Positions 27,054 through 49,296 of a DNA stretch of 64,000 nucleotides are shown in pieces. Each line of letters starts with the position of its first letter. Positions within the stretch are counted from its first letter, which is position 1. Both the position numbers and the translations under genes were made by a program. Below the pieces are notes generated by a model. It did not search any database. It was not told where the DNA came from and saw only the letters and a list, made by a program, of their open reading frames with translations. Origin of the DNA: Anaerococcus sp. Marseille-P3625 (GTDB lineage: Bacteria > Bacillota > Clostridia > Tissierellales > Peptoniphilaceae); NCBI RefSeq assembly GCF_900232825.1, contig NZ_OCTP01000010.1, positions 372,001 through 436,000 on the forward strand, given 5' to 3'.

Positions 27054-27065
27054 AAAAGAAAATTA

Positions 27066-27095
27066 AATCGCCATAGTACTATGGCGATTTTTTTT
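27066..27095 (+). terminator. Rho-independent terminator after PFOR
   Basis: A perfect 12+12 palindrome (27066-27089; about 10 bp stem and a 4-base loop) followed by T to 27095, 12 bases after the PFOR stop. It ends only 18 bases before the next ATG, so the next operon may depend on partial read-through. Confidence 0.92.
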
Positions 27096-27113
27096 AAGAT
27101 TAATAGAGAAAAA

Positions 27114-28571
27114 ATGGACAAATTAATATTTTTTACTAAAGCACCTAATCTAAATAATTGCAAGACTAGAATGAGTAATTTTTTATCCCCAAAAGAAAGA
27201 TATGAATTAATGCTTACATTAATTAATGAAAATTATAAGAAAATAAAACGAACAAATAAAGATCTTATAATTTATTATGATGGGGATATTAAGGATATTG
27301 AATTTTTAAATGAAAAAAAACATAGGCAAAATGGAACGGATTTAGGCTATAAAATGAGAAATGCCATTTTTGACCACTTAGATGGTGCCAACAAAGTCGT
27401 TCTTTTAGGTTCAGATTTAGCAAATTTAGAAAGCTCTCACATTATTGATGCTTTTAAGAAACTAGATGATTATGATTTTGTTATTTCTCCAACATTTGAT
27501 GGAGGATTTGGCTTAATAGGGATGAAAGAAAAATTTGATATTTTCACAGGAATAGAATATTCTAATGAGTCAGTACTTAATAATATTATTGAAAAAATTA
27601 AATCTTTTAATAAGTCATATTATTTACTTCCTAGAATTAGAGATATAGATAATATGCAAGATCTTGTTGCCTGTGAATTTTCTGATGATAGTGTAAAACT
27701 ATTAGGAGCTGGTGAATATAACTTAAATTACAGATTAGACGATAAAGTTATTAGAATTAACTTAGCAAGTCAGATAAATTTAGCTGGTAAACAGTTAAAA
27801 TATGAATATGATGCCCTAAAAACTCTAGAAAAATCAGAAGTCACACCAAAAGTTTTCGATTATTACGATATGGGAAGACTAATACCTAAAAGTTTTTTAA
27901 CCATGGAATATGTTGAGGGTCAAGCACTTGATTATAGTAAGGATATGGAAATTGCAGCAAAACTTTTAAGCTCAGTTCATAATCTAAAGGCAGATTTTTC
28001 TAAATTTATTTATGCTAAAAAACCCTTTCAAGCCATGTATGATGAATTTGTTAGTATGTTTAGCCATTATCAAGCCTTTGAAAAAAAAGATAGGAATGTT
28101 GAAGAGAAAATTTTATATTTCTTAACCTTTGCAAAAAAATCTGGATTAGATGAGAATATTTCAAATCCATGCATAATAAACACCGAATTAAATAATAGAA
28201 ATTTTATTATTGGAGAAAAGTCCGTAATTATTGATTGGGAAAAGCCGATAATTGGAGAATGCGAGCAAGATTTAGCACATTTTCTTGTTCCAACAACCAC
28301 TAATTGGAAAACAGACACAATTCTTAGCGAAGATGAAATGTTAGAATTTTTAAAAATCTATGAAAAATATCGAAAGATTGATTACAATAAATTCTATAAA
28401 TATTTGATGTTTAATTCTCTTAGAGGAGTGACCTGGTGTTCTATGGCAAAAGTTCAATATGAAGAAGATAGATTTATCAAAAATGCTGATACTTACAATA
28501 AAATCAATAAGTTTTTATCTTATGATTTTTTGAATATGCTAGAAAAATTTTATAGGAGATTTGATGGATGA
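27114..28571 (+). CDS. TIGR04282-like glycosyltransferase fused to an aminoglycoside/choline-kinase-like domain
   Basis: 485-residue two-domain cytosolic protein. Residues 1-175 resemble the DUF2064/TIGR04282 transferases: FFTKAP at the start, CKTRM, LGYKMRNA, LLGSDLANL and SPTFDGGFGLIG (a GT-A-like fold). Residues about 190-485 resemble APH/choline kinases: NLNYRL, TMEYVEG, INTELNNRNF in the catalytic-loop position and IIDWEKP as the Mg-binding motif. The catalytic loop lacks the usual His-x-Asp (it reads Asn-Thr-Glu), so activity is doubtful. I reject the ATG at 27081, which is inside the terminator, in favour of 27114. It heads a seven-gene overlapping operon. The label 'arsenosugar' used for this family should not be transferred. 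Confidence 0.75.
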   Translation: MDKLIFFTKAPNLNNCKTRMSNFLSPKERYELMLTLINENYKKIKRTNKDLIIYYDGDIKDIEFLNEKKHRQNGTDLGYKMRNAIFDHLDGANKVVLLGSDLANLESSHIIDAFKKLDDYDFVISPTFDGGFGLIGMKEKFDIFTGIEYSNESVLNNIIEKIKSFNKSYYLLPRIRDIDNMQDLVACEFSDDSVKLLGAGEYNLNYRLDDKVIRINLASQINLAGKQLKYEYDALKTLEKSEVTPKVFDYYDMGRLIPKSFLTMEYVEGQALDYSKDMEIAAKLLSSVHNLKADFSKFIYAKKPFQAMYDEFVSMFSHYQAFEKKDRNVEEKILYFLTFAKKSGLDENISNPCIINTELNNRNFIIGEKSVIIDWEKPIIGECEQDLAHFLVPTTTNWKTDTILSEDEMLEFLKIYEKYRKIDYNKFYKYLMFNSLRGVTWCSMAKVQYEEDRFIKNADTYNKINKFLSYDFLNMLEKFYRRFDG

Positions 28572-29001
28572 AGAAAAATTAATAGAATACGGAAAAAAAG
28601 GTTATAATTGTTCCCAAACAGTTTTTTGCTATTTTGCAAGCCTTATGGGTATGGACGAAAATACTGCAGCAAAAATAGCAACTCCATTTGAGATGGGCAT
28701 GTATAAGTCAGATATATGCGGAGCATTAACAGCATCATATATGGCCTTAGGCTTAAAATATGGATCAACTGATATGGAGGAAAAATTAGAACTTATAAAA
28801 AAAGTACTTAAGCTTGATAGTGAGTTTGAAAAAAGAATGGCTAATACTAAGTGTGCCGAACTATTAAAAGTCGATGTAAATACTGATTCTGGTATGAATT
28901 ATGCCATAGAAAATAACTTATTAACAAGCGTTTGTGGGAAATGTATTACAAATGCAATAGACATTACTGAAGAAATTTTGGGAGAAAGTAATGAAAATTA
29001 A
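28564..29001 (+). CDS. C-GCAxxG-C-C family protein
   Basis: 145-residue cytosolic protein with the family's spaced cysteines: GYNCSQ near 14-19, ICGALTAS near 52 (the family's GCAxxG core reads CGALTAS), KCAELL near 98, and VCGKC near 122-126. The family is thought to be redox or metal active and is repeatedly found near selenium- or arsenic-linked transferases; its function is unknown. The start at 28564 is set by AGGAG six bases upstream; it overlaps the fusion gene by 8 bases and the lipoprotein gene by 11. Confidence 0.8.
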   Translation: MDEEKLIEYGKKGYNCSQTVFCYFASLMGMDENTAAKIATPFEMGMYKSDICGALTASYMALGLKYGSTDMEEKLELIKKVLKLDSEFEKRMANTKCAELLKVDVNTDSGMNYAIENNLLTSVCGKCITNAIDITEEILGESNEN

Positions 29002-30319
29002 AAATTTATTTATTACTGGAGCTTTATGTTTAGGATTATTAACTGGATGTGGGAATAATTCAAATGTAGATACCGATAAAGATACCAAAGAAGAAACAAA
29101 AGTTGAAACTAGTGATAATACAGACGATACTGCAAAAAATGAAGAAAGCAAAGTGGAAAAATCAGAAGAAACATCTAGCGATGATTTGTCAAATCTTTCC
29201 TTTGAAGAAATAGCTGAAAAAGCAAAAGGTTCCAGCGTAAACTTCTACGGTTGGGGTGGAGATGATAAAAGAAATCAATGGATAGATACTTATGTAATTC
29301 CAAAAGTTAAAGAACAATATGACGTTACTGTAAATAGAGTTCCTATGGATATTGATGAGATTAATAACCTTATGCTAGCAGAAAAAGATTCAACTGACGG
29401 AAATATTGACGTTGTTTGGATAAACGGAGAAAACTTTGCTAATGCTAAAGAAAATGGAATGCTTTATGGACCATTTACTAAACAATTGCCAAATTACAAC
29501 GATTATGTAGATGAAAATAGTTCATCTGTTAATAGCGATTTTGGTGAGCCTGTTGAAAATATGGAAGCTCCTTATGGTGGAGCACAATTTGTATTTATTT
29601 ATGACAGTTCAAAAATAGATACACCACCTAAAAATGCTCAAGAATTACTAGAGCTTGCAAAAGCTAATCCTGGTAAAATCACCTACGCTTCTTTACCAGA
29701 TTTTACAGGCTCTGCATTTATTAGAAATATAATCTCTGATATCCAAGGCTATGAAGATTTTATGGATAAAAATTTAACCAAAGATCAATTAAAAGAAATG
29801 CTAAAACCAACAATTGATTATCTAAATGAACTTAAACCTTATTTGTGGAATGAAGGAAAATCTTACCCACCAGATAACCCAACACTTGCAAATATGTTTG
29901 CTGATGGAGAAGTAATAATGGCTATGAGCTATAATCCTAACAACGCTTCAATAGGTTATGCTGATGGACTTTATGACGAAAATGTAAGAACATTTGTATT
30001 TGACAAGGGAAATATTGCTAATACACACTTCTTAGCTATAAGTAAGGGGGCTAAAAATAAGGCTGGTGCTATGGTTTTAATTAACTTTATTTTATCACCA
30101 GAAGCACAAATTTCTAAGGCTTACCCTGAAACACTCGGCGATCTACCAATCATTTCTTATGATAAATTAACTGATGAACAAAAGAAGATGTATGATGAAA
30201 TTCCAACAGGTGAATTAACTTTATCAAACAAAGTTTTAGAAGAACACAAGATTCCAGAAATGCCAGCTCAAATAGTACCATTAATTGAAGAGATATGGGA
30301 AGAAGAAGTTCTAAATTAG
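28991..30319 (+). CDS. YnjB-like ABC transporter substrate-binding lipoprotein
   Basis: 442-residue extracellular solute receptor. It has a signal peptide with lipobox LTGC (Cys near 20), an acidic/Thr linker to about 75, then the binding domain. Segments such as DVVWINGENF, PYGGAQF, ELLELAKANPG, PDFTGSAFI and PYLWNEGKS correspond closely to what I recall of E. coli YnjB. The substrate of YnjBCD is not established; distant relatives bind thiamine, polyamines or iron. GGGAG precedes the ATG inside the previous gene. It is followed by two permeases and an ATPase, making a complete importer. Confidence 0.88.
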   Translation: MKIKNLFITGALCLGLLTGCGNNSNVDTDKDTKEETKVETSDNTDDTAKNEESKVEKSEETSSDDLSNLSFEEIAEKAKGSSVNFYGWGGDDKRNQWIDTYVIPKVKEQYDVTVNRVPMDIDEINNLMLAEKDSTDGNIDVVWINGENFANAKENGMLYGPFTKQLPNYNDYVDENSSSVNSDFGEPVENMEAPYGGAQFVFIYDSSKIDTPPKNAQELLELAKANPGKITYASLPDFTGSAFIRNIISDIQGYEDFMDKNLTKDQLKEMLKPTIDYLNELKPYLWNEGKSYPPDNPTLANMFADGEVIMAMSYNPNNASIGYADGLYDENVRTFVFDKGNIANTHFLAISKGAKNKAGAMVLINFILSPEAQISKAYPETLGDLPIISYDKLTDEQKKMYDEIPTGELTLSNKVLEEHKIPEMPAQIVPLIEEIWEEEVLN

Positions 30320-31152
30320 AAAGTTTCTTAGCCTATCAAGGATTAATTTTAATTATAATCTTAATCCTTATAGGCTTAGGAAAATCTTTACTTATAAGTT
30401 TTGGAATTTATGATGAAATTGGCATAAACACTTTTACTACAAGCTATTATTCTAATATATTTAACGATAAAACTTTTATTGAAAGTTTAATTTTTTCATT
30501 AAAAATATCCGTAATTTCTAGTGCAATAGCTTTGGTATTAGGTGTTTTTTTATCTTATGGAATCTTTAATAGCAAAATATTTGACATTTATCTTAAAATA
30601 CCTGTAATAATCCCTCATATAATTATTGCGATTAGTCTTGTTAATTTGTTTAGTCAAACTGGAATAATTTCAAGAGTTTTATATAATTTTGGACTTTTAT
30701 CTAATAGCAGTGATTTTTACCAAATGTTTTATGATAAGAATGCTATAGGAGTTATATTTACCTATGCCTTCAAAGGAGCAGCTTATGCTGCTATGGTATT
30801 TTTGGAAATTTATAGAAAGATTTCGATAAATCAACTCTATGCTGCCAAGAATTTAGGAGCTAGTGATTTGAAAGAATTTTATTATGTAATTTTTCCTTAT
30901 ATTAAAAGAGAAATGTTAGAAATTTTCCTAATTTTATTTAATTTTTCTATTAGTTCTTATGAAGTTCCACTATTGATTGGGCCAACGGTACCAAGAACTC
31001 TTGCCATAAAGTCTTACGTTGAATTTTCTAAGAATAGTTTTATTTATAAACCTAATGCCTTTGCTATAAATATAATACTAACTTTAATTGGCTTATTATC
31101 AATTATTTTGTTGTTAGTTTTTGGAGTAAAAAATGATGAAAAAGATCTCTAA
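30295..31152 (+). CDS. ABC transporter permease (YnjC N-terminal-half-like)
   Basis: 285-residue inner-membrane permease with about six helices. The cytoplasmic loop AAKNLGASDLKEFYYVIFPYIK (about 182-203) is the EAA motif that contacts the ATPase. In E. coli YnjC is one long protein of two fused permease halves; here the halves are separate genes. The start overlaps the receptor gene by 25 bases and the end overlaps the second permease by 20. Confidence 0.85.
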   Translation: MGRRSSKLESFLAYQGLILIIILILIGLGKSLLISFGIYDEIGINTFTTSYYSNIFNDKTFIESLIFSLKISVISSAIALVLGVFLSYGIFNSKIFDIYLKIPVIIPHIIIAISLVNLFSQTGIISRVLYNFGLLSNSSDFYQMFYDKNAIGVIFTYAFKGAAYAAMVFLEIYRKISINQLYAAKNLGASDLKEFYYVIFPYIKREMLEIFLILFNFSISSYEVPLLIGPTVPRTLAIKSYVEFSKNSFIYKPNAFAINIILTLIGLLSIILLLVFGVKNDEKDL

Positions 31153-31924
31153 AATTTTATTATATATCTATATTATCCTATTAATTTTAGGTGGAATTGA
31201 CATTATTTTTACAAGTTTTAGGCAAAATTATCCCTATCCAAACTTAATTAATGCAAATTACTCTTTAAGAAGCTATTCATATTTATTAAAGGAAATGAAA
31301 CTAAGAACTGGCACTATTAATTCTTTTATTATCGGCATTGGATCTTCCATTTTTTCCTTGATATTAGCTTATCCTATAGCAAAAAAAATTTATGACAAGG
31401 ATAAAAATTATAAAGCTATAAATTTTTTGGTTTTTTTGCCATTTTTGATTGCTGCAACGACAATAGGCCTTGGTTTGCAAACTTTTTTATTAAGCATTGG
31501 CATAAAAAATTCAAAAATAGTCATTGGTTTGGTTCAATCTATATATATAATTCCTTATTGCGTTAGAATTATAAAACCTGGTTTTGGATTTCTTTCAGAA
31601 AATATTTTATCATCAGCTTATATGCTAGGAGCGAATCACAAAGCTGTTATAAAAAATATTGCCTTACCTATTATGGCTCCTTTTATAAAAACTGCTTTTA
31701 TCATGGGCTTTATTTTATCTGTTAGTCAATATTATATTACCTTGGTTTTAGGATCTGGATTGGTTGATACATTTATAACCGTTGCTTTTCCTTTCTTTGC
31801 ATCAAGAGATAGAGCTATTTCATCAGCTTTAATTATATTATTTTTATTGATAAATATTTTATTGATTTTGTTTGTAGAACTTATTTTTAGACAGATATTT
31901 AGGAGAAAAAAATGGCAGATATAA
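31133..31924 (+). CDS. ABC transporter permease (YnjC C-terminal-half-like)
   Basis: 263-residue second permease of the importer, with six hydrophobic segments and the EAA loop SSAYMLGANHKAVIKNIALP near residues 160-179. GGAG precedes the ATG by 6 bases, within the end of the first permease. It overlaps the ATPase gene by 13 bases. It would form a heterodimer with the product of 30295-31152. Confidence 0.85.
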   Translation: MMKKISKILLYIYIILLILGGIDIIFTSFRQNYPYPNLINANYSLRSYSYLLKEMKLRTGTINSFIIGIGSSIFSLILAYPIAKKIYDKDKNYKAINFLVFLPFLIAATTIGLGLQTFLLSIGIKNSKIVIGLVQSIYIIPYCVRIIKPGFGFLSENILSSAYMLGANHKAVIKNIALPIMAPFIKTAFIMGFILSVSQYYITLVLGSGLVDTFITVAFPFFASRDRAISSALIILFLLINILLILFVELIFRQIFRRKKWQI

Positions 31925-32835
31925 AAGCAATTGACATTAGTAAGAAATTTAATGATAAGCTCATTTTAGATAATATAAGTTTTAAATTAAATAAGGGAGA
32001 AGTTTTATCAATTGTAGGTCGTAGTGGATCTGGTAAAAGCACTTTGCTTAAAATCCTTGCAGGAATTATCAATAATTATGAAGGTGATGTATTTTTTGAT
32101 GCTAATAATATAAAATCTTTAGATATTAGAAAAAGAAAGTTTATTTTAATGTTTCAGGATGCTGAATTATTTCCTCACATGAATATCCTTGATAATGTGG
32201 CTTTTGGCTTAAAAATGCAAGGTGAAAAATCAGACTTTATAGAAAAAGAAACAAATAGATATCTAGACCTTGTAGGACTTATTGATCATAAAGATAAGTA
32301 TCCTAATCAAATATCTGGAGGAGAGAGGCAAAGAGTTTCACTAATAAGAAGTCTTATAGTAAAGCCAAATATGCTTTTGTTAGATGAGCCTTTTTCTGCC
32401 TTAGATGAAAGTCTAAGAGCAAATTTAAGAAATGAAACCTTTAAGATTATAAAAGAGCATAATATTCCAACTTTATTTGTTACCCACGATATTAATGAAG
32501 CTGTTGAGGTTTCTGATAAGATGGCCATATTAAAAAATGGAAAATTTATTGCCTATGATAAGCCTAGAAACATTTATGAAAATCCAAAAAATCTAGCAAC
32601 TGCTAAATTTATTTTTAAAGATAATATCATTGATAATATGCTAATAAAAAAATCCGATATAGATATAGTTGCTGGTGATTCTTATCAAATACTTGAAAAG
32701 ATTTATAGGGGAGATTATTACTCCTATAAAATTCATGGTAAATATAGCCTAATTGTCGATTCAAGGGATGAATATGATATTAATGATAGAATAGATATAA
32801 GAATTAAAAATAAAATAATTTTGGAGGAAGAGTGA
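31912..32835 (+). CDS. ABC transporter ATP-binding protein (YnjD-like)
   Basis: 307-residue ATPase of the importer: Walker A GRSGSGKST near 37-45, Q-loop MFQDAELFP near 80, signature SGGERQRVS near 137, Walker B LLLDEP near 160, and switch His in FVTHD near 193. The core ends near 225. An extra C-terminal region of about 80 residues follows, a small beta domain like the regulatory TOBE-type domains of other importers; E. coli YnjD lacks such a tail as far as I recall. AGGAG precedes the ATG. Confidence 0.88.
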   Translation: MADIKAIDISKKFNDKLILDNISFKLNKGEVLSIVGRSGSGKSTLLKILAGIINNYEGDVFFDANNIKSLDIRKRKFILMFQDAELFPHMNILDNVAFGLKMQGEKSDFIEKETNRYLDLVGLIDHKDKYPNQISGGERQRVSLIRSLIVKPNMLLLDEPFSALDESLRANLRNETFKIIKEHNIPTLFVTHDINEAVEVSDKMAILKNGKFIAYDKPRNIYENPKNLATAKFIFKDNIIDNMLIKKSDIDIVAGDSYQILEKIYRGDYYSYKIHGKYSLIVDSRDEYDINDRIDIRIKNKIILEEE

Positions 32836-33659
32836 AAAAAGTAATAATTGATACAGACTGCACCATAGATGTTAAGGGCTGTGACCTAGACGATGCCTTT
32901 GCAATCTTATATATGATTGCTAATCCAAATATAGAAGTAAAACTAGTAACAACAACATATGGAAATAACAACGAAGATGTGACTTATAAGGCTACTAAAA
33001 AAATGTTTGATGATCTATCCATAGATATTCCGCTGGTAAAAGGCGGTCTTTACACTAATGATGGGGGAGCTGCCATAAAGAAAACAGCTGAAGAAAATGA
33101 AGATATGACTATTCTTTCTTTAGGTTCAACAACGAATACTCAAAAGGCACTTTCACTTGGCCTAGATACTAAAAAAATAAATTCTTTTGTAGCCATGGGT
33201 GGAATAACTGAAGAACTTAAGTTTAAGAAAAAAAATATGCGTGAATTAAATTTAAGTATAGATTATCTTTCAACAAATTATGTATTAAATAAAGTTAAAA
33301 ATGTCGATATAATAACAGGAAATAACTGTATGAGCCATACTTATAGAGTTAACGATCATCCAACTTATAAAAGTCCATATATGAATTATCTAAAAAAATC
33401 TTTAATTCGACTTACTGATGAATTTTTAGATGAATTTGGTCAAAGAGAGCTTGTAGTTTGGGATGCTTTAGCTGCTTTGTATATTACAAATCCAGAATTT
33501 TTCATAGACCATAAAAAAAATATTTGCCTTGATGAGAATCTTTTGAATGGATATTTAGTAAAGGGAAATGATAAAAAAGTTAATTTACCTGAGCTTAAAG
33601 ATGGTATTGATGCAATGGATTATATTGTAAACGTAATTGAAAAAGAGGCTTTTATCTAA
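32832..33659 (+). CDS. Inosine/uridine-preferring nucleoside hydrolase-like protein
   Basis: 275-residue protein of the nucleoside hydrolase (N-ribohydrolase) fold. It opens with VIIDTD and the Asp cluster CDLDDAFAIL, the calcium-binding motif, here stretched by a few residues relative to the classical DTDPGIDDA. FVAMGG near 115, the ELNLSIDYLS segment near 138 (classical EFN) and the late VWDALAALY near 215 complete the site. It would split an N-glycosidic bond. It starts with GTG overlapping the ATPase stop and is the last gene of the import operon, so its substrate may be the imported compound. Confidence 0.8.
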   Translation: MKKVIIDTDCTIDVKGCDLDDAFAILYMIANPNIEVKLVTTTYGNNNEDVTYKATKKMFDDLSIDIPLVKGGLYTNDGGAAIKKTAEENEDMTILSLGSTTNTQKALSLGLDTKKINSFVAMGGITEELKFKKKNMRELNLSIDYLSTNYVLNKVKNVDIITGNNCMSHTYRVNDHPTYKSPYMNYLKKSLIRLTDEFLDEFGQRELVVWDALAALYITNPEFFIDHKKNICLDENLLNGYLVKGNDKKVNLPELKDGIDAMDYIVNVIEKEAFI

Positions 33660-33683
33660 AAGATAAGAGCCTCAAATTTTTTT
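33645..33683. terminator. Bidirectional terminator built into the 3' ends of two convergent genes
   Basis: A 13-bp stem (33645-33657 with 33661-33673, one G-T pair) with a three-base loop, followed by T on the plus strand and by T5 on the minus strand (33640s). The left arm encodes the last codons of the nucleoside hydrolase gene, and the right arm carries the stop of the minus-strand glycosyltransferase gene. Confidence 0.85.
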
Positions 33684-34337
33684 GTAAATTTCTGCGATTT
33701 TTTCTATATCGTAGCCTTCTCTGTATTTTTTTTGTAGTTTTTTCATCCTATAACCTGTAATAAATTCCTTGCCCAATAATTTCCTTGATGAAGTATAAAT
33801 TGGATAAGAAATTTGTTTAATAGGATTTCCACTTTCTATCAAATCTAAGGAAAGTTGGTAATCTTCCATTAGTGGTATGGATTTATAACCTCCAATTTTT
33901 TCAAATAAATCTTTTTTTATAAAAATCCCTTGATCCCCAAAAGCTATATTTCTTTTTCTAACTCTCTTATTTGAATAATAAGCGATAATTTTAAGTTTTA
34001 AATTATTAGGGGTAAAACTCATTTTAAAGCAACCAGCTGCAAGCTTTGAAGAATTTATAATATTTATACAATCAGGGCCAATAATAGAATCTGCATGGAG
34101 AAAGAATAGATAATCTCCTTTGGCATATTTTGCAGCTCTATTCATTTGATTTGCCCTAAATTTGCTTTCTCTAATTTTAGGATATTTTATTAAATCAAAG
34201 GTATCATCTGTTGAAAAACCATCTGAAAATATTACCTCAAAATTACCTTTGATATTACTAAGAACTTCTTCAATTTTGCTAATATTATCAGCTTCATTGT
34301 ATGTCGGAATTATTATCGTTACCATGTTTTTTATCAT
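33672..34337 (-). CDS. Family 2 glycosyltransferase, TIGR04283-like
   Basis: 221-residue GT-A glycosyltransferase. Motifs: TIIIPTYNEADNI at the start, VIFSDGFSTDDT near 35, LFFLHADS (metal-binding D-x-D position) near 73, GCFKMSF near 97, and a late IPLMEDYQLSLDL near 155 (catalytic base ED). The short length without a membrane tail fits the TIGR04283 'transferase 2' group, which often occurs near TIGR04282 proteins such as the fusion at 27.1 kb. It is the last gene of a seven-gene minus operon and overlaps the preceding gene by 44 bases if translation starts at 34337 (an alternative Met is at 34325). Confidence 0.82.
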   Translation of the reverse strand: MIKNMVTIIIPTYNEADNISKIEEVLSNIKGNFEVIFSDGFSTDDTFDLIKYPKIRESKFRANQMNRAAKYAKGDYLFFLHADSIIGPDCINIINSSKLAAGCFKMSFTPNNLKLKIIAYYSNKRVRKRNIAFGDQGIFIKKDLFEKIGGYKSIPLMEDYQLSLDLIESGNPIKQISYPIYTSSRKLLGKEFITGYRMKKLQKKYREGYDIEKIAEIYKKI

Positions 34338-34968
34338 AAATTTTCTTTGCTAACAAGGTTAATACTGTAAAAGCAAGTAAAAGGATGACAGAAAAAATAA
34401 AATTTTCTTTATTTTGACTTCCAATATTAGTACCAACATTTAAATATATCATCATTCCGGGAATAACGCCGATAACGGTAGTTAGTACATAAGGCAACAA
34501 TTTGATTTCAGTTAGCCCAGCTAGATAATTTTCAAAAATGTATGGTATAGCAGGGATTAGCCTTGAAATGAAGAATGTTGTTATTAGTTTTTTTTGATTC
34601 TTAGTGTAAATCAAATTAAAATATTGTGGAGATAATTTATCTTTTAATCTATCATATATTTTATCCTTAGCAAATTTATTAGAAATAAAATACATAAGTG
34701 TAGTATTTGTAATTACTCCGATTAAAGTTAAAGTAATACCTTCATAAAAACCAAATAAAGTACCTGCAACTACAACTATTGTTAGAGTTGGTACAAATAT
34801 GGCTGGTAAAATAGTAAAACTAATTATATATACAATTGGAGCTAAAGAGCCAAAAGAGTCGATTCTTGCTTGTAGAGATTCTATATTAATAGATTTATTT
34901 ATCCAAATTATAAAAGCTATCACTAGGATAGCTTTTAATACATTAAAAATTCGTTTTGTGTTTGGCAT
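34294..34968 (-). CDS. TVP38/TMEM64 family membrane protein (YdjZ-like)
   Basis: 224-residue integral membrane protein of the VTT (SNARE-associated/DedA-like) family, with about six hydrophobic segments. The core FVPTLTIVVVAGTLFGFYEG near residues 57-76 and FFISRLIPAIPY near 130 are the conserved re-entrant elements. Members are linked to lipid scrambling or small-molecule transport; bacterial roles are mostly unknown. It overlaps its upstream paralogue by 26 bases. E. coli carries the same kind of pair, ydjX and ydjZ, next to ynj genes. Confidence 0.85.
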   Translation of the reverse strand: MPNTKRIFNVLKAILVIAFIIWINKSINIESLQARIDSFGSLAPIVYIISFTILPAIFVPTLTIVVVAGTLFGFYEGITLTLIGVITNTTLMYFISNKFAKDKIYDRLKDKLSPQYFNLIYTKNQKKLITTFFISRLIPAIPYIFENYLAGLTEIKLLPYVLTTVIGVIPGMMIYLNVGTNIGSQNKENFIFSVILLLAFTVLTLLAKKIYDKKHGNDNNSDIQ

Positions 34969-35674
34969 TATATCTTTTCCTTAACAATGCTACAATTACA
35001 GCAAGGACTGATATACCAATTACAAAGAAGAATATTCCACGAATTCCTCCGTCGAGTTCTCCACCTGTGTAAGAATAAACTATAGTAGCTGGTAATTGTC
35101 CAATTCCTGTGGCTATAAAAAATCCCCAGAAACCCATTGATGTTAGACCAGCTGCATAGCTTACAACATCAAAAGATACAAATGGAAGCAAACGAGCAAT
35201 AAGTATTGTGTAATTACCATACCTATTGAAAAACTCTTCTATACTTTCTAAGGCTCCCTTGCCACTTAATTTTATAACAACATCTCTTCCCAAAGCTCTT
35301 GCAATGAAAAAGCAGATTGCTGCACCAACCATAGCTGATGACCAGGATAATATTGCTCCTTTTACCCAACCAAATATTGCAGCATTTGCAAGTGTTATCA
35401 TAACCGCTGGGATAGGTGAGATAATTGATTGAAGGATCATTAATAGAAATGAAATTACAGCAGCTTGTTTACCATAACCTCTAATGTATTCAATAACTGA
35501 ATTTATACCACCAGATTTTAGTGCTGTAATAGCGCTATTAACACCATTTTTAAATGGTGGAATTAAAAAGTAGGCTAAAATCAAAGCAACAAGTGGTATC
35601 AAAACAATTAATTTGGAAGATTTATTTAGTTTTTCCTCGTTAGGATTTGTTTTATCTACTTGTGTATTTTTCAT
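34943..35674 (-). CDS. TVP38/TMEM64 family membrane protein (YdjX-like)
   Basis: 243-residue VTT-family membrane protein with a polar N-terminal tail of about 20 residues, then about six membrane segments. Conserved pieces are PIPAVMITLANAAIFG near 88-103 and ILIARLLPFVSFDVVSYAAGLT near 156-177, the typical R-x-x-P-x-x-x-D/N family motif. The two tandem TVP38 proteins differ enough to suggest a heteromeric pair. It lies 12 bases after a rhodanese lipoprotein gene in the same operon. Confidence 0.87.
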   Translation of the reverse strand: MKNTQVDKTNPNEEKLNKSSKLIVLIPLVALILAYFLIPPFKNGVNSAITALKSGGINSVIEYIRGYGKQAAVISFLLMILQSIISPIPAVMITLANAAIFGWVKGAILSWSSAMVGAAICFFIARALGRDVVIKLSGKGALESIEEFFNRYGNYTILIARLLPFVSFDVVSYAAGLTSMGFWGFFIATGIGQLPATIVYSYTGGELDGGIRGIFFFVIGISVLAVIVALLRKRYNAKHKTNF

Positions 35675-35685
35675 TTATTACTCTT

Positions 35686-36489
35686 TTATTTTTCAGATAG
35701 GTCAAATTCTTCGTATTCTTTTGTTCCGTCGAATGCGTTTATAACTTCATGACCGTCTTCAGCAAGTTTATTTGCTATTACAAAAGATTTATTACCAGAA
35801 TAGCAGTAAGTTAAGAATTGCTTATCTGTTGGAAGTGTTGGATAAATTTCATCAATTTTATCAGATGGAATATTTATTGCTCCAGGCATATGTCCTGCAT
35901 CATAATCTTTAGCATCTCTTGCATCGATTATTGTATAATCTCCACTAGCTGCTAAATCTTTAAATTCTTTTCCTAAAACTGTTTTTACTTTTGTAACTGT
36001 TGTATATGTGAAATCTTCTAAACCAGCTGCGTTATAAAGATCTGTAAATCCATTGGCAGCTAATGTTTTGTAAGCTTCTTTAGAATCATCTGCTTTATTT
36101 GCATATACTACAACTGATTTATCTTTCCAGCCTTCAATTTCAGCTAATCTTGATTCAAGATCTTCTGCTGGAATAGAAATTGCGTGTTTAATATGACCAT
36201 TTTTATAATCATCTTCACTTCTAACATCGATTACTAGATATTTTTCTTTTTGCTTGTTATCTTCTTCTATTTTGTCAAGATCCTCACCTGTCATTTCTTT
36301 TACTTCAACTTCTTCAGTTTCAGTTTTTTCTTCAGCAGGTTTTTCTTCTTTATTATCTTCTGTTGTTGCAGAATCTTCAGTTGTAGTTGCTGGTTCATCT
36401 TTTTTTGTTTCATCAGTTTTGTTGCCACAAGCTTGTAGAGCTAATGTACCTACTAATAATAGTGCCAATAATTTATTTGATTTTTTCAT
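35686..36489 (-). CDS. Lipoprotein with two rhodanese domains, first inactive
   Basis: 267-residue exported lipoprotein: lipobox LQAC (Cys near 21), a Thr/Glu/Lys linker to about 60, then two rhodanese domains. The first (about 65-155) has YANKADD in the active-loop position, so its catalytic Cys is missing. The second (about 170-265) has TYCYSGNKS with the Cys present and the usual DARDAKDYDAGHMPGAINIP start. Rhodaneses carry a persulfide and transfer sulfur or selenium. It overlaps the upstream membrane protein gene by 17 bases. Confidence 0.88.
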   Translation of the reverse strand: MKKSNKLLALLLVGTLALQACGNKTDETKKDEPATTTEDSATTEDNKEEKPAEEKTETEEVEVKEMTGEDLDKIEEDNKQKEKYLVIDVRSEDDYKNGHIKHAISIPAEDLESRLAEIEGWKDKSVVVYANKADDSKEAYKTLAANGFTDLYNAAGLEDFTYTTVTKVKTVLGKEFKDLAASGDYTIIDARDAKDYDAGHMPGAINIPSDKIDEIYPTLPTDKQFLTYCYSGNKSFVIANKLAEDGHEVINAFDGTKEYEEFDLSEK

Positions 36490-36859
36490 TTACTTTCTCC
36501 TCTTTAATAAATTGAAGTATATTAATAATGCTAAGCATTACGAATATAGCATACTTTGTTAACTTAAATTTTTGAATATCTAAAAATAATAATCCAATAA
36601 TTACCGTAGTAATTATAAAAGAAATAGGGGGTATACTCTTAGATTTTCTTAAATTTAAGATGATCCTTAAAAGAAACAATATAATTAAAATTATAAAAAC
36701 TAATTTGTATTTGTTTTCTATAAGGTAATTATAGTACATGAGAGTTCTTTGAACGCCCATTTTTTTATTTACAAAGTATTGAATTAGAAAAATTCCTAAT
36801 AGTCCAATACTCTGTATTATATTGATTGTAATAATTTTATTCTTTTTTTGCTTTATCAT
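36473..36859 (-). CDS. Small four-helix membrane protein between two rhodanese genes
   Basis: 128-residue hydrophobic protein with four membrane segments (about 10-30, 53-70, 80-97, 104-118), strongly basic at the N-terminus. I do not recognise the family. I use the ATG at 36859 rather than the TTG five codons upstream; neither has a strong ribosome site, and the gene overlaps the preceding rhodanese gene by 23 bases, so translational coupling is likely. Its place between two exported sulfurtransferases suggests a membrane partner for them. Confidence 0.7.
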   Translation of the reverse strand: MIKQKKNKIITINIIQSIGLLGIFLIQYFVNKKMGVQRTLMYYNYLIENKYKLVFIILIILFLLRIILNLRKSKSIPPISFIITTVIIGLLFLDIQKFKLTKYAIFVMLSIINILQFIKEEKVNEKIK

Positions 36860-37997
36860 TTGATAATTCGCCAACTGTAGTCATCTTAACATCAGTTTTT
36901 GGATCGCCTAATTGAACTGGAAGTTCATCATGCATTTGCCATTCGTTCCATCCGCCATCAAATAGCTTTACATTAAATCCTTTTTCATAGAATTTTAATA
37001 GAGGAATAGCAGCTCTCCAACCAGTTCCACAGTAAAATATCATTTCTTTTGATAGGTGAACACCTTCTTTTTTCAACATTTCAACCATGTCATCATAGCT
37101 AATATATGTTCCATCTGCATTCTTATAATCAGCTTCATCATGGCCATAAATTGCACCTGGAAGTTCTCCTGCTTTTGGAATATAAGTATAACCACTAGTT
37201 TCGCCAATATATTCTTCATAGGTTCTTGTTGTTATATATTGCTTATTTTCGTCTTTACTTTCTATATCTTTTTTAGCTTGTTCTAGACTAACTATCAAAT
37301 CAGGATGAGCAGGATATTCGCCTTTAAAATCAGTTTTTGCAACTGCTTTGTTAGCTTTGCTTTCAGTTTCATAACCTTTATCCATCCAAGCTTTTATACC
37401 GCCGTCGATAATTTTAATGTTTTCGACACCTTCTATAAGATAAGCCAAAGCAACTCTTGCAACACCAGAATTAGGTCCATATAAAAATACTGTTGTATCT
37501 TTATCTATTCCATAATTAAGGATTGACTTTACAATTTCTTCATCACTTTTAAAATTCCAAACAGGACCTTCTTCCACAGTATCAGTATTTATGTGGATAG
37601 CTCCTGGAATGTGATTTTTAAGATAATCAGGACTTGCATCGTCCTCACCCCAAGTAACTTCAGCTATGACATAATCTTTTATATCGTTTTTACCATCAAT
37701 TACATCCTTTAGATAATCGGCAGTAACAAAAATTTCCTTGCTTATTGGACTACAACAATCACCGACTGGTTTAGCTTCCTCTTTAGAATCAACTTTGTCT
37801 TGATCCTCTTTGTCAGCATCAGTGTTTGTTTTACTAACTTCTTTTTCATTATCGCTTTTTACTTCTTCACTTGCCTCGTTATTAGCCTTTGTATCGGAAT
37901 TTTCATTTTTACTTTGGCAGGAAGCAAAAGATAAGCTTATCAAGATAGCAAATAATGAAAAGCTAATTTTTTTTGTTAATTTGTTTAATTTAAACAT
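36837..37997 (-). CDS. YnjE-like sulfurtransferase lipoprotein (tandem rhodanese)
   Basis: 386-residue exported lipoprotein. The signal peptide ends with FASC (Cys near 27), an Asp/Lys/Glu linker runs to about 75, then GDCCSPIS, then two rhodanese domains. Domain one (about 90-205) has LYGPNSG in place of the active-site loop, so it is not catalytic. Domain two (about 225-370) has YCGTGWRA, the distinctive active loop of E. coli YnjE. The product would hold a persulfide on the outer face of the membrane. It lies 14 bases after the Fe-S protein gene and overlaps the small membrane gene. Confidence 0.88.
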   Translation of the reverse strand: MFKLNKLTKKISFSLFAILISLSFASCQSKNENSDTKANNEASEEVKSDNEKEVSKTNTDADKEDQDKVDSKEEAKPVGDCCSPISKEIFVTADYLKDVIDGKNDIKDYVIAEVTWGEDDASPDYLKNHIPGAIHINTDTVEEGPVWNFKSDEEIVKSILNYGIDKDTTVFLYGPNSGVARVALAYLIEGVENIKIIDGGIKAWMDKGYETESKANKAVAKTDFKGEYPAHPDLIVSLEQAKKDIESKDENKQYITTRTYEEYIGETSGYTYIPKAGELPGAIYGHDEADYKNADGTYISYDDMVEMLKKEGVHLSKEMIFYCGTGWRAAIPLLKFYEKGFNVKLFDGGWNEWQMHDELPVQLGDPKTDVKMTTVGELSNDKAKKE

Positions 37998-38011
37998 TTC
38001 TTACCTCTAAT

Positions 38012-38938
38012 TTAAGATAAGAATTTTCCTTTGACCGCATTTTTAAAGAAGTTATTATTAACTTCTTCATCCATTCCTAAAAAAGCAGAAATTAGGTGGT
38101 GAACCTTGTTATATTTAGAAAAATTCATTGAGCAAGTTGCACAATATGTGTAAATCTCATCATCTTTTATTGAAGATATCATATCATTTGCAAGCTTACT
38201 TTCGCACTTGCTTGCAAGACCTCCTGCACCACAACAATTAGTAGATGTAAATTTGTCATTCCATTTTGGAGCGTGCTTTTTAATAACTTCGAAGATTTCT
38301 CGATTATATCTATCTGAACAGGGGAAGAAAATATTTATAGGTTCATTTATATCGTTAATATAATCGTACTCTTCAAGCCACTGAAAAATAGATATTACAT
38401 CTGCCATGTATTTGTTTTTTAAAAAATGGTAGCAATTAGGGCAAGCTGTTACTATTCTTTTTATATCCTTATCTCTAATTTGCTTTTCTAAACTTTTACT
38501 TGTTGTTACATCAAAACCTGTACTTGCAACAGGTTTTCTACAACAATCTATTGAAAAATCAAAGTCTTTAGAACTAAATATCTCTACTAATTTCCTTGAA
38601 GTTTCAGGATAAAATGCTGGAAAATTACAGCCTAAATATAACAAATCTTTTGAATATTTATTTTTTCTAGCTAAATTTCTATAGGGGTAGAAATCTTTAG
38701 TTATTTTTATAAATTTATATTTAGGATTCTTTTTCCTCAAAAGTTCAGATACATATTTTCCATTTAAGTCTTTAGGACATACACTTTGACACTTGTTGCA
38801 TTCAAAGCATGAAAATGCTAAATCTTCTCTTTTTATAAAATCTTTTAGATTTATGGAATATTTTTCTAAGAACGTACAATTTTTAGTACAAAGTCCACAT
38901 TCTATGCAATTATCTTCTACGTTTTTAAGGTAATCCAT
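38012..38938 (-). CDS. HdrB/GlpC-like (Fe-S)-binding oxidoreductase subunit
   Basis: 308-residue cytosolic redox protein. The N-terminus has two 4Fe-4S motifs (CIECGLCTKNC near 11-21; CFECNKCQSVC near 44-54). The rest has two CCG-type repeats of the heterodisulfide reductase B kind: first DCCRKP with CPNC, then NCCGAGG with YCATC. Such proteins bind noncubane or ordinary clusters and reduce disulfides, persulfides or quinones. It is the first gene of the minus-strand operon, with AAGGAT before the ATG, and probably supplies electrons for the exported sulfurtransferase system. Confidence 0.87.
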   Translation of the reverse strand: MDYLKNVEDNCIECGLCTKNCTFLEKYSINLKDFIKREDLAFSCFECNKCQSVCPKDLNGKYVSELLRKKNPKYKFIKITKDFYPYRNLARKNKYSKDLLYLGCNFPAFYPETSRKLVEIFSSKDFDFSIDCCRKPVASTGFDVTTSKSLEKQIRDKDIKRIVTACPNCYHFLKNKYMADVISIFQWLEEYDYINDINEPINIFFPCSDRYNREIFEVIKKHAPKWNDKFTSTNCCGAGGLASKCESKLANDMISSIKDDEIYTYCATCSMNFSKYNKVHHLISAFLGMDEEVNNNFFKNAVKGKFLS

Positions 38939-39218
38939 TTAAAATCCTTATCAATAATAATTTTGCTAATTCTAAGTGTGTACTAAAGCTAAAAGGCTAT
39001 CTTAGAATTGTGGTTAATTTATTTTATATATGTATAAATATTTCATAGTGTACTTATTGCATTTGCAAATATGAAGCTATCTTACATATATACTTGCAAT
39101 ATATCATAAATTTATTTTTTGTCAATTTTAATATTTATTTCAATTTATGGTATAATATTAACATTTGTTATAGTATAATAGATATGATATAACATTCCAA
39201 AAATCAATGGAGGAAGAT
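38939..39218. promoter_or_regulatory. Divergent intergenic region between the sulfur operon and the asp23-like operon
   Basis: 280 A/T-rich bases without a gene. On the minus-operon side there is an inverted repeat AATTCTAAG (38968-38976) / CTTAGAATT (39001-39009) in the presumed leader, and a palindrome TTGCA-tt-TGCAA (39057-39068) with another TTGCAA at 39093. These are candidate operator or leader-hairpin sites for the minus operon; I could not place a convincing minus-strand promoter. The plus-strand promoter is listed separately. Confidence 0.5.
39148..39156 (+). promoter_or_regulatory. Extended -10 promoter of the asp23-like operon
   Basis: TGGTATAAT (TATAAT at 39151-39156) is a perfect extended -10 element without a clear -35, about 60 bases before the start. 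A second TATAAT lies at 39174. Confidence 0.6.
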
Positions 39219-46467: not shown

Positions 46468-46741
46468 ATATTTTATTTAATTTATCCATAATTTGTTCAA
46501 TTTCTTTTATTTTTTCTATTTTTTCATCTTTTTTGCCATTTTCAAGGGCATCATAGACACAATGCTCAAGATGAGCTCCTAAGATATCCTTGTTAATATT
46601 TTTTAAAATTGAAATTGAAGCCATAAGTTGATTACTTATATCGATACAATATCTATCATCTTCAATCATTTTTATCAAACCGTCAATTTGCCCGCTTACA
46701 GTTTTTAATTTTCTAATTGTCTTTGCCTTATCAGCCCTCAT
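46466..46741 (-). CDS. csoR: Copper-sensing repressor CsoR
   Basis: 91-residue helical DNA-binding protein of the CsoR/RcnR family that releases operators when it binds Cu(I). The copper ligands are visible as Cys in RYC near 32 and the His/Cys pair in HLEHC near 57-61. Its ATG shares a base with the copA stop, so it is co-translated after copA and controls its own operon through the operator at 49.3 kb. Confidence 0.92.
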   Translation of the reverse strand: MRADKAKTIRKLKTVSGQIDGLIKMIEDDRYCIDISNQLMASISILKNINKDILGAHLEHCVYDALENGKKDEKIEKIKEIEQIMDKLNKI

Positions 46742-46968
46742 TATTTATAGTCAATTCCTTTAAATTCGTAGCCTGCATCTTTTATTGCATTCTCAATTGC
46801 TTCTTCATTAGCTAAATCAGAATAAGTTACTTCTGCTATTTTATTTTTCAAATCAACTTCTGCTTTTTCAACAAAGTCTAGAGAATTTAGTGCCTTTTCT
46901 ACATTAGCTTTGCAATGTTCGCATGACATACCATAAACATTTACGATTAATTTTTTGTTTTCTTTCAT
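46741..46968 (-). CDS. copZ: Probable CopZ-like copper chaperone from an internal start in copA
   Basis: In frame with copA, codon 777 is an ATG preceded by AAAAGGAG (46984-46977) at 8 bases, as good a ribosome site as any in the window. Translation from there gives a 75-residue soluble HMA protein (MKENKK, GMSCEHC, then the beta-alpha-beta core), the size of CopZ. Chaperones of this kind hand Cu(I) to CopA. The full-length fusion and the free chaperone could both be made. This is inference from the sequence; expression is unproven. Confidence 0.65.
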   Translation of the reverse strand: MKENKKLIVNVYGMSCEHCKANVEKALNSLDFVEKAEVDLKNKIAEVTYSDLANEEAIENAIKDAGYEFKGIDYK

Positions 46969-49296
46969 TGATTTTTCTCCTTTTATATTTTCTTCTAATT
47001 TTTCTTCAATTGAATCTTTAATAATTTCTTGGTTCTCAAATTTTGCTTTAAATGATCTAAGTCTTAATGAGTTAAGGCAGACAAATATTGAAGACATACT
47101 CATAGCAAAAGCGGCAAACATTGGATTTAATTTTATTCCGAAAGCTGGGTATAAAATTCCACTGGCAACAGGGATTAAAATTACATTGTAAAAAAATGCC
47201 CAGAATAGATTTTCTTTTATAATTTTTATAGTTTCTTTGGAAAGATTTATTGAATTAACTATGTCCAATAAAGAATTTCTCATCAGTACAATATCTGCAG
47301 AATCAATTGCAACATCAGTTCCATTTCCTATAGCAATTCCAATATCACTTCTAGCTAGGGCAGGGGCATCGTTTATTCCATCTCCAACCATCGCTACTTT
47401 TTTACCCAAATCTTGTAGATTCTTTACAACCTTATTCTTATCTTTAGGTAAGACTTCGGCAAATTTTTTGTCTATGGATAATTTTTTTCTAATTGCTTCA
47501 GCAGTTTTTTCATTATCACCAGTTAGCATAATGACTTCATAAGAAAGTTTTTTTAACTCTTCTATGGCTAATTTTGAGGTGGATTTTGGAGTATCCATAA
47601 CTGCAATAATACCTAAAACTTTTTTGTCGTCAGAAAAATACATAGCAGTTTTTCCATCAGAAGAATATTTTTCAGCTAAATTTTTGTAAGAATTTAGATC
47701 GATATCATTATCTACCATCAATTTTTCATTTCCTCCATAATAAGTTGTGGAGTTTAGTTTTCCAATAATTCCCTTGCCGGAAATTGCAGAAAAGTCATCA
47801 ATTTTTTCAAGATCTATATTTTTCTCTTTGGCATATAAAACTATTGCATTACTTAATGGATGTTCTGAAGAATTTTCTATGCTGGCTGCAATTTTAATAA
47901 ATTCATCTTCATCTAAAATCGTATCAATATCTGTGACAATAGGTTTACCATTGGTAATGGTTCCTGTTTTATCTAGTAAAATGCTATCAACTTTGTGTAA
48001 ATTTTCTAATGCTTCCGCATTTTTAAATAAAAGACCAAGTTCTGCGGATTTTCCAGTTGCGACCATTATTGCCATTGGCGTTGCAAGTCCTAAAGCACAA
48101 GGACAAGAAATTACAAGTACTGAAATCATCATATTTAGAGCAAATTCAAAGTTATAACCCAATATTTTCCAAATTATAAATGTAATAATCGAAATTATTA
48201 TAACAGTAGGTACAAATATTGCGGCAATTTTATCGGCTATCCTTGCAATAGGTGCTTTGGTTTCATTAGCTTCATTAACAAGGTTAATTATTTGAGAAAG
48301 AGTTGTATAATCTCCAACTTCAGTTGCGATAAATTTAAAACTACCTTGTTTATTTATAGTAGCAGAAATAACTCTGTCATTTATATTTTTTGCTATAGGA
48401 ATTGATTCTCCAGTTATAGCAGACTCATCAACTAAAGAAGATCCTTCTATGACTTTTCCATCTACTGGTATAGAGTCACCTGGTTTAATTAAAACAATGT
48501 CTCCTTTTTCAATTTGATCTACACTAACAATAATTTCTTCATTGTCTTTAATAATTGTTGCTTGTTTTGGTGCTAAATTTATTAAATGTTCTAAAGATGC
48601 TTTAGTTTGTCCTTTAGATCTTGCTTCAAAATATTTTCCCAAGGTAATTAGGGTTAATATCATAGCTGAGGATTCAAAATATAAATTGTGCATGTATTGA
48701 TTAATTATTTCTTCATTGCCAAAAGAAAAACCATAGGCGATTCTTAAAATTGCAAAAACTCCATAAATAAATGCCGAACTGGAACCTAAAGCTATAAGCG
48801 TATCCATATTAAAAGCTCTATTAATCAATCCTTTAAATCCATTTATAAAAAACTTTCTATTAACTATAAGAACTGGCAAAGTCAATAAAAATTGAACAAT
48901 TGCATTAAGTAAAGATCCCTTATAACCAATTAAATAATAGGGAAGTGGTAGTCCAAACATGGGACCCATAGATACATACATCAAAGGAATTAAAAATAAA
49001 AATGATATTTTTAATCTAAATTTTGTATTATCTTCATCTTTTGCTAATTCCTTATCTTCAGGACTTTTTGTAATTATTTTATTCTCATCAGATTTTAGTC
49101 TTGCGCCATAGCCAATTTTTTCAACGGCAGTAATAATATCTTCATCAGAAATCATATCTGGATTATAATCAACACTCATGCTTTGACTTATGAGATTTAC
49201 ATTTACTTCGTTTACTCCAAGTTTTTCAACGGCTCTTGTAACATTGGCCTGACAAGCTGAACAAGACATTCCACTCACGTCGAAACGCTTTTTCAT
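46741..49296 (-). CDS. copA: Copper-exporting P1B-type ATPase with an extra C-terminal HMA domain
   Basis: 851-residue copper pump. An N-terminal HMA domain (GMSCSAC, Cys12 and Cys15) is followed by eight membrane helices with the CPC motif in SCPCALGLATP, the phosphorylation site DKTGT, the TGES actuator loop, and the GDGINDAPAL hinge. After the last helix there is a Lys/Glu linker and a second HMA domain (GMSCEHC, Cys792 and Cys795). A C-terminal HMA on CopA is unusual; see the internal CopZ entry. AGGAGG precedes the ATG. It forms an operon with csoR. Confidence 0.96.
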   Translation of the reverse strand: MKKRFDVSGMSCSACQANVTRAVEKLGVNEVNVNLISQSMSVDYNPDMISDEDIITAVEKIGYGARLKSDENKIITKSPEDKELAKDEDNTKFRLKISFLFLIPLMYVSMGPMFGLPLPYYLIGYKGSLLNAIVQFLLTLPVLIVNRKFFINGFKGLINRAFNMDTLIALGSSSAFIYGVFAILRIAYGFSFGNEEIINQYMHNLYFESSAMILTLITLGKYFEARSKGQTKASLEHLINLAPKQATIIKDNEEIIVSVDQIEKGDIVLIKPGDSIPVDGKVIEGSSLVDESAITGESIPIAKNINDRVISATINKQGSFKFIATEVGDYTTLSQIINLVNEANETKAPIARIADKIAAIFVPTVIIISIITFIIWKILGYNFEFALNMMISVLVISCPCALGLATPMAIMVATGKSAELGLLFKNAEALENLHKVDSILLDKTGTITNGKPIVTDIDTILDEDEFIKIAASIENSSEHPLSNAIVLYAKEKNIDLEKIDDFSAISGKGIIGKLNSTTYYGGNEKLMVDNDIDLNSYKNLAEKYSSDGKTAMYFSDDKKVLGIIAVMDTPKSTSKLAIEELKKLSYEVIMLTGDNEKTAEAIRKKLSIDKKFAEVLPKDKNKVVKNLQDLGKKVAMVGDGINDAPALARSDIGIAIGNGTDVAIDSADIVLMRNSLLDIVNSINLSKETIKIIKENLFWAFFYNVILIPVASGILYPAFGIKLNPMFAAFAMSMSSIFVCLNSLRLRSFKAKFENQEIIKDSIEEKLEENIKGEKSMKENKKLIVNVYGMSCEHCKANVEKALNSLDFVEKAEVDLKNKIAEVTYSDLANEEAIENAIKDAGYEFKGIDYK

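Follow-up and report, generated by a model that had tools for sequence, protein, structure and literature searches.

The stretch analysed here, referred to as the window, comprises 64,000 nt of Anaerococcus sp. Marseille-P3625 (NZ_OCTP01000010.1) and carries 14 genes in two convergent operons, within which neighbours overlap or lie at most 14 nt apart. They encode a YnjBCD-type ATP-binding cassette (ABC) importer, an iron-sulfur (Fe-S) protein, rhodaneses, membrane proteins and transferases, and together they could plausibly form, in our tentative reading, a selenium-linked acquisition and handling system. The features of the locus are as follows.

27065..27090, plus strand: hairpin terminating the upstream pyruvate:ferredoxin oxidoreductase gene; the plus operon's first gene starts 24 nt after it
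27114..28571, plus strand: fusion of TIGR04282 (CofC/DUF2064-like nucleotidyl- or glycosyltransferase) with a choline-kinase-fold domain, NTE replacing the catalytic HGD
28561..29001, plus strand: C-GCAxxG-C-C redox-type protein (54.7 bits, cut-off 47.4)
28991..30319, plus strand: YnjB-family substrate-binding lipoprotein (NF008633, 455.8 bits, cut-off 203)
30295..31152, plus strand: ABC permease, first half of YnjC (profile matches)
31133..31924, plus strand: ABC permease, second half of YnjC (profile matches)
31912..32835, plus strand: ABC ATPase YnjD (profile matches)
32832..33659, plus strand: nucleoside-hydrolase family protein (PF01156) that retains the metal and ribose residues and has Trp preceding the last catalytic Asp
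33645..33673, both strands: shared bidirectional terminator
33672..34337, minus strand: TIGR04283 glycosyltransferase (GT2; 188.8 bits, cut-off 182)
34294..34968, minus strand: VTT/TVP38 membrane protein a (profile match)
34943..35674, minus strand: VTT/TVP38 membrane protein b, sharing 50% identity with YdjZ of E. coli
35686..36489, minus strand: rhodanese lipoprotein B, two domains (profile matches)
36473..36874, minus strand: small membrane protein, recurring in relatives
36837..37997, minus strand: rhodanese lipoprotein A, two domains, 3-mercaptopyruvate-sulfurtransferase-like (profile matches)
38012..38938, minus strand: 4Fe-4S/CCG (HdrB-like) protein with a relationship to NF045663 'diclust_near_Sec' in the C-terminal part of the latter
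38968..39009, minus strand: leader hairpin 2, AGUACAC bulge
39042..39075, minus strand: leader hairpin 1, AAGUACAC bulge
39098..39125, minus strand: promoter-like TTGACA-16-TATATT of the minus operon (11/12 match, extended -10)

The terminator common to both operons has a 13-bp stem (33645-33673); a T-run follows the stem on the plus strand, and the A-run preceding it serves as the T-run of the minus transcript. The preliminary description of this DNA had the same layout, and its coordinates, overlaps and shared terminator were all reproduced. Its start of the fusion gene, 27114, is also the likelier one because the first ATG (27081) falls within the upstream terminator hairpin. No promoter-like site of at least 10/12 was listed in the 24 nt after this hairpin, and the interval 27065-27113 offers no space for an obvious promoter, so that read-through from the ferredoxin oxidoreductase gene, or attenuation, is likely for the plus operon. 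The minus operon possesses a strong promoter-like site (39125-39098), followed by a leader of ~150 nt.

The families first named for the cluster were right; the TIGR04282, TIGR04283, C-GCAxxG-C-C and YnjB proteins all exceeded their cut-offs (145.6 bits against 134 for the TIGR04282 part of the fusion), while the small membrane protein matched no family above cut-off. The kinase-fold domain lies near LicA and N-acetylhexosamine 1-kinase and differs from them in the invariant NTE, which takes the place of the HGD of the APH/choline kinase motif in 24/24 aligned sequences. In inosine-uridine-type nucleoside hydrolases, the His before the last Asp is the general acid. In the window family this position is an invariant Trp; the Asp metal ligands and the Asn and Glu/Asn ribose residues are present, with D9, D20, D21, N45, E138, N140 and D211 invariant among 21 aligned sequences. 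The fold of YnjB gave polyamine, iron and sugar-phosphate receptors as top Foldseek neighbours and glycoside receptors as top VIA-align neighbours; the rows were tied, and therefore no ligand is claimed. A selenoprotein within the cluster was rejected as the link to selenium, as each of the 14 genes is a complete frame in which cysteine occupies the positions where it is expected (judged by eye, with no systematic UGA search).

The plus and minus halves belong to one system, as the preliminary description had supposed, because other genera carry them as one co-directional operon. YnjB exceeded its cut-off in 13 of the 130 genomes of the window genome's family. The window layout is identical in two congeners, L050 and L051 (L and G numbers are our handles for loci and genomes); the rhodanese A frame of the latter (L051:17377-18564) looks split. 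The operon of L046, from another genus, runs in one direction through rhodanese, kinase/TIGR04282, TVP, TVP, TIGR04283, Fe-S, YnjBCCD and hydrolase genes, and L047, likewise from another genus, holds the same set in one direction plus C-GCAxxG-C-C. Rearranged versions were found in L045, L048 and L054 and reduced ones in L044, L049, L052, L053 and L055. Among Enterococcaceae, 17/17 YnjB loci have co-directional Fe-S, YnjBCD, TIGR04283, kinase, TIGR04282 and TVP38 genes, and 16/17 have the hydrolase and rhodanese too.

In total, 131 loci were profiled, drawn from genome sets, GTDB genome contigs (at least 80 loci), E. coli and plasmid records. Of these, 129 contained YnjB, which formed 84 clusters at 70% identity, and the 73 clusters with at least 4.5 kb of upstream and at least 5 kb of downstream flank made up the non-redundant set. 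The neighbourhood comparison suggested in the preliminary description bore out the co-occurrence of the halves: within 9 kb of YnjB, these 73 loci contained TVP38 (48), a CDP-alcohol transferase (36), Fe-S/CCG (33), rhodanese (31), hydrolase (27), kinase (23), TIGR04283 (16) and TIGR04282 (15). The gene set recurs across genera and phyla, and in every case YnjBCD is an ABC system of the importer type. As a background, 40 tiles of 20 kb from a related genome, searched with the same profiles, contained TVP in one tile and a TIGR04283-like gene in one tile; YnjB, kinase, TIGR04282, hydrolase, CDP-alcohol transferase, rhodanese and the Fe-S protein were found in none of them.

The relationship with the ydj-ynj locus of E. 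coli was likewise upheld. The window shares YnjB (NF008633, over cut-off), YnjC, YnjD, two TVP38 proteins and a rhodanese with ydjXYZ-ynjABCD and ynjE, and the TVP38 and rhodanese genes stand beside YnjBCD. Of the two, only the E. coli locus has YdjY, YnjA and the CDP-alcohol transferase YnjF, whose gene adjoins ynjE; their families had no match among the 14 window genes. The window in turn differs from E. coli by its CCG Fe-S protein and its leader element, and its cassette is the hydrolase/kinase/TIGR04282/TIGR04283 set. According to passages of PMC3688515, the ydjXYZ-ynjABCD operon and ynjE are directly activated by FNR. Our literature search found no assigned pathway for the E. coli K-12 relatives ydjXYZ-ynjABCDEF.

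Two alternative cassettes accompany YnjBCD. Cassette A is an inositol-phosphate-synthase-like CDP-alcohol phosphotransferase, and cassette B, that of the window, consists of the nucleoside hydrolase, the kinase-fold protein, TIGR04282 and TIGR04283. Among the 73 loci, the CDP-alcohol transferase never occurred together with the kinase, TIGR04282 or hydrolase; a TIGR04283-like gene accompanied it in a single locus, L078. The exclusivity is strong and not absolute, because L066, one of the 129 loci and dropped at dereplication, carries both full cassettes; this locus also has a YedE-like half. In several loci, the hydrolase is the only listed partner of YnjBCCD. The cassette-A transferase (L133 protein) has an intact D..DG..AR..(8)..G...D...D motif; it is nearest to archaetidylinositol phosphate synthase (108 bits, below the cut-off of 180) and also near phosphatidylinositol-phosphate synthases, below their cut-offs. 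On a quick tree of the 73 YnjB rows (LG+G4, SH-aLRT), the cassette changed 11 times, at least six of the changes being forced by starred branches, and the cassette labels were clustered relative to shuffles. Because they were swapped ~11 times, both cassettes probably serve the same imported compound, and the swap narrows its possible nature: it would be an alcohol or sugar ending on a lipid or similar acceptor.

YnjB loci are associated with SelD. The window genome itself has SelD (343.4 bits, cut-off 125) and SelA; YqeB and MnmH were not found in it by profile search. By eye, its SelA gene adjoins genes resembling a glycine-reductase operon. With kinship ignored in all three comparisons, SelD exceeded its cut-off in 13/13 family genomes with YnjB against 73/117 without it (Fisher 0.0044), in 28/30 against 232/368 genomes of a phylum draw (Fisher 4.7e-4) and in 16/17 against 28/88 Enterococcaceae (Fisher 1.6e-6). 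For the named genomes, 50 loci were chosen from at least 80, and SelD was present in 22/24 kinase/TIGR-type, 5/7 hydrolase-only and 13/19 cassette-A genomes. Where TIGR04282 lies beside YnjB, SelD was present in 42/43 tested genomes, with G589 as the exception (8/8 in the family, 5/5 in the phylum, 14/14 among the named and 15/16 among the Enterococcaceae, G537 apart). SelA, and with it tRNA-Sec, was considered as the common denominator, occurring in 8/8 family genomes with a full cassette B versus 41/122 others. It is missing from Agrilactobacillus (G541) and G539, and the common factor is therefore SelD, not SelA.

Genes of selenium type also stand near YnjB. Ten loci in six clusters have a split YedE/FdhT-like pair resembling TsuA/YeeE; one half each from two of these loci was tested and gave 112.4 and 106 bits. 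YedE-like pairs, YedF (over cut-off in L108) and LysR-type genes lie beside some YnjB loci, recalling the YedE/YedF/DUF3343/LysR_Se genes treated in PMC5322559, a STRING table of which pairs a glycosyltransferase with YedE; YnjBCD, TVP38 and this cluster are absent from the passages giving that account. A flavoprotein/Fe-S fusion in L062 reached 528.4 against the cut-off of 530 for 'diclust_near_Sec'. A TIGR03169 ('Nterm_to_SelD') relative just under its cut-off lies beside cassette A in Planococcus (L115:5396-6490), in a genome with no SelD match. A fragment-length protein beside YnjB (L131:8994-9503) has a C-terminal match to GRDB (glycine reductase selenoprotein B). An open reading frame similar to it was seen at L142:8981-9499.

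The minus operon and the selD operon of three sister species (G020, G031 and G016) have the same leader element. The minus-operon leader is conserved in all three cluster-bearing genomes of the genus and contains two hairpins, each built of an outer and an inner stem, with (A)AGUACAC bulged out on the 3' side. A structured scan of 3.58 Mb with the exact core gave 11 matches, all in these leaders or in selD-operon leaders of G020, G031 and G016, and none in two Markov-shuffled copies of the same sequence; with the core alone, six tandem pairs were seen against ~0.4 expected by chance. Across 14 hairpins from seven leaders, the structure is conserved with covariation: two to four pair types occur at each of the six outer pairs closest to the bulge, which itself is constant. 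With one mismatch allowed in the motif, the 3.58 Mb contained no further tandem pair, and an additional 0.8 Mb of G020 contained eight scattered single matches. A single match in L157, obtained with a looser earlier descriptor, looks like chance, and a pair in L233 from the 0.8 Mb scan was discarded as unstructured.

The additional sequence of G020 contained one further structured tandem pair (L234:15178-15460), located before an ABC importer of NitT/TauT/Sao-like type. The best models of its permease and ATPase were SaoP (110.5 bits, cut-off 295) and SaoA (267.1, cut-off 360), and its receptor matched SsuA-type and SaoX (59.6, cut-off 300) models, all below cut-off. In the minimum free energy fold of this one leader, ACACACUUU of the second hairpin pairs with the downstream AAAGUGUG, followed by a T-run, giving an alternative terminator; none of this type was seen in the fold of the window leader. 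At gathering score, Rfam recognised only a tRNA-Lys in the window, and on the leader it gave two chance-level matches; at the thresholds applied, it has no family of this kind. A description of the AGUACAC tandem-hairpin element was not found in the literature search either. The element is a candidate selenium-responsive RNA and, if it responds to selenium, would be a sensor of which these searches found no description. The leader, the two cassettes and the position of ynjF beside ynjE go beyond the preliminary description.

That description's import-and-modify scheme is supported in outline, and we infer the chemical steps as follows. YnjBCD would import a small glycoside- or glycerophosphodiester-like compound. 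With cassette B, the hydrolase would free a sugar, which the kinase-fold/TIGR04282 fusion would convert to an activated nucleotide derivative for transfer by TIGR04283, probably to a membrane acceptor; with cassette A, the CDP-alcohol phosphotransferase would join the compound to a lipid in a single step. Transport of the lipid-linked product, or of a selenium/sulfur species, through the membrane might fall to the TVP38 proteins. On the outside, the persulfide cysteines of the rhodanese lipoproteins may serve as carriers of sulfane sulfur or selenium, and the Fe-S/CCG protein, which some relatives have as a fusion with an NAD(P)H flavoprotein, could reduce the carried species so that selenide reaches SelD. 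The leader RNA would set minus-operon expression according to selenium status. It is doubtful, in our estimate, that the system is dedicated to selenium to the point where YnjBCD and its cassette make or salvage a selenium-carrying glycoside or lipid, with a new RNA class, the AGUACAC tandem hairpins, sensing selenium status and controlling selD, the minus operon and the second importer.

The selenium link proposed at the outset is supported by the SelD counts, the neighbouring genes and the leader common with selD operons. Several observations weigh against it. The fold neighbours of YnjB are tied and single out no ligand. SelD was not found in 6/19 of the cassette-A hosts tested (Planococcus and some Bacillus among them), in 2/24 tested kinase-bearing hosts or in G589 of the Enterococcaceae, although its cassette-B operon, L199, is intact. 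SelA, present in 12/14 TIGR04282-bearing named genomes, is dispensable; the SelD counts, besides ignoring kinship, may include a few genomes under two handles, and L066 breaks the cassette rule. Compared with shuffles, window hairpin 1 by itself shows no better folding (z 0.20), and the complete window leader folds only modestly better (z -1.33). The element was not found in the selD leader of the window genome itself (L171), in that of G021, in 12 SDMH-type selD loci of the genus or, in the sequence scanned, outside this one genus.

The strongest rival is sulfur chemistry with a selenium by-effect, namely import, trafficking and conjugation of thiosulfate or sulfane sulfur, with SelD following through anaerobic Stickland-type metabolism. 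The rhodaneses, TVP38 proteins and TsuA/YeeE-like split transporter agree with it, as do G589 and the cassette-A hosts without SelD; the same leader RNA before selD operons and the retention of SelD in Agrilactobacillus and Enterococcus hosts do not, and we regard it as unlikely. A metalloid or organometallic defence after the fashion of SAO or arsenosugar pathways, in which a compound is imported, glycosylated or lipid-linked and sequestered, seems improbable. It draws on the curation of TIGR04282 and TIGR04283, both over cut-off in the window, as arsenosugar glycosyltransferases, and on the G020 importer under the same leader, whose nearest models belong to the Sec-assisted organometallic (SAO) operon described in passages of PMC13188914; however, no ArsS exceeded its cut-off in the genome, the Sao models were not reached, and no Sao gene occurs in the window. 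The arsenic link drawn in the preliminary description did not hold: ArsS (TIGR04167), by which the NCBIfam arsenosugar system differs, gave at best 42.6 bits in the genome against a cut-off of 300, and strict arsenosugar biosynthesis was rejected because no ArsS exceeded the cut-off.

Salvage of nucleosides or glycosides for surface glycolipid synthesis, with no role for selenium, appears quite improbable. The conserved ribose and metal residues of the hydrolase, the proximity of the kinase-fold domain to LicA/N-acetylhexosamine 1-kinase, the nucleotidyl- and glycosyltransferases and the loci with the hydrolase as sole listed partner of YnjBCCD would fit, but the rhodaneses, Fe-S reductase, SelD counts and leader would be left without account. 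That two unrelated operons merely converge in this genus is hardly credible: they lie on opposite strands under separate control, with the leader element seen only before the minus operon, and the single co-directional operons elsewhere already contradict such a separation.

Selenium-linked acquisition would bear on a gap in current knowledge: according to passages of PMC11097638, PMC13188914 and PMC9312934, neither a dedicated transporter for selenium nor a specific high-affinity uptake system is known; the cluster gives named genes for testing selenium uptake, E. coli K-12 included. Passages of PMC10127716 mention DedA-rhodanese fusions of unclear meaning and a link of DedA to selenite resistance, and parts of PMC10418091 connect other clostridial clusters with both Sao genes and selenide methylation. 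The literature search found no paper joining TVP38, rhodanese and selenium, though Haft work of 2023/2025 may describe part of this, and no described function of TIGR04282/TIGR04283.

Elsewhere in the window, positions 9671-13269 hold a gene pair for an NADH-type flavoprotein and an [FeFe]-hydrogenase, and positions 46741-49296 encode a P-type ATPase with two heavy-metal-associated domain matches.

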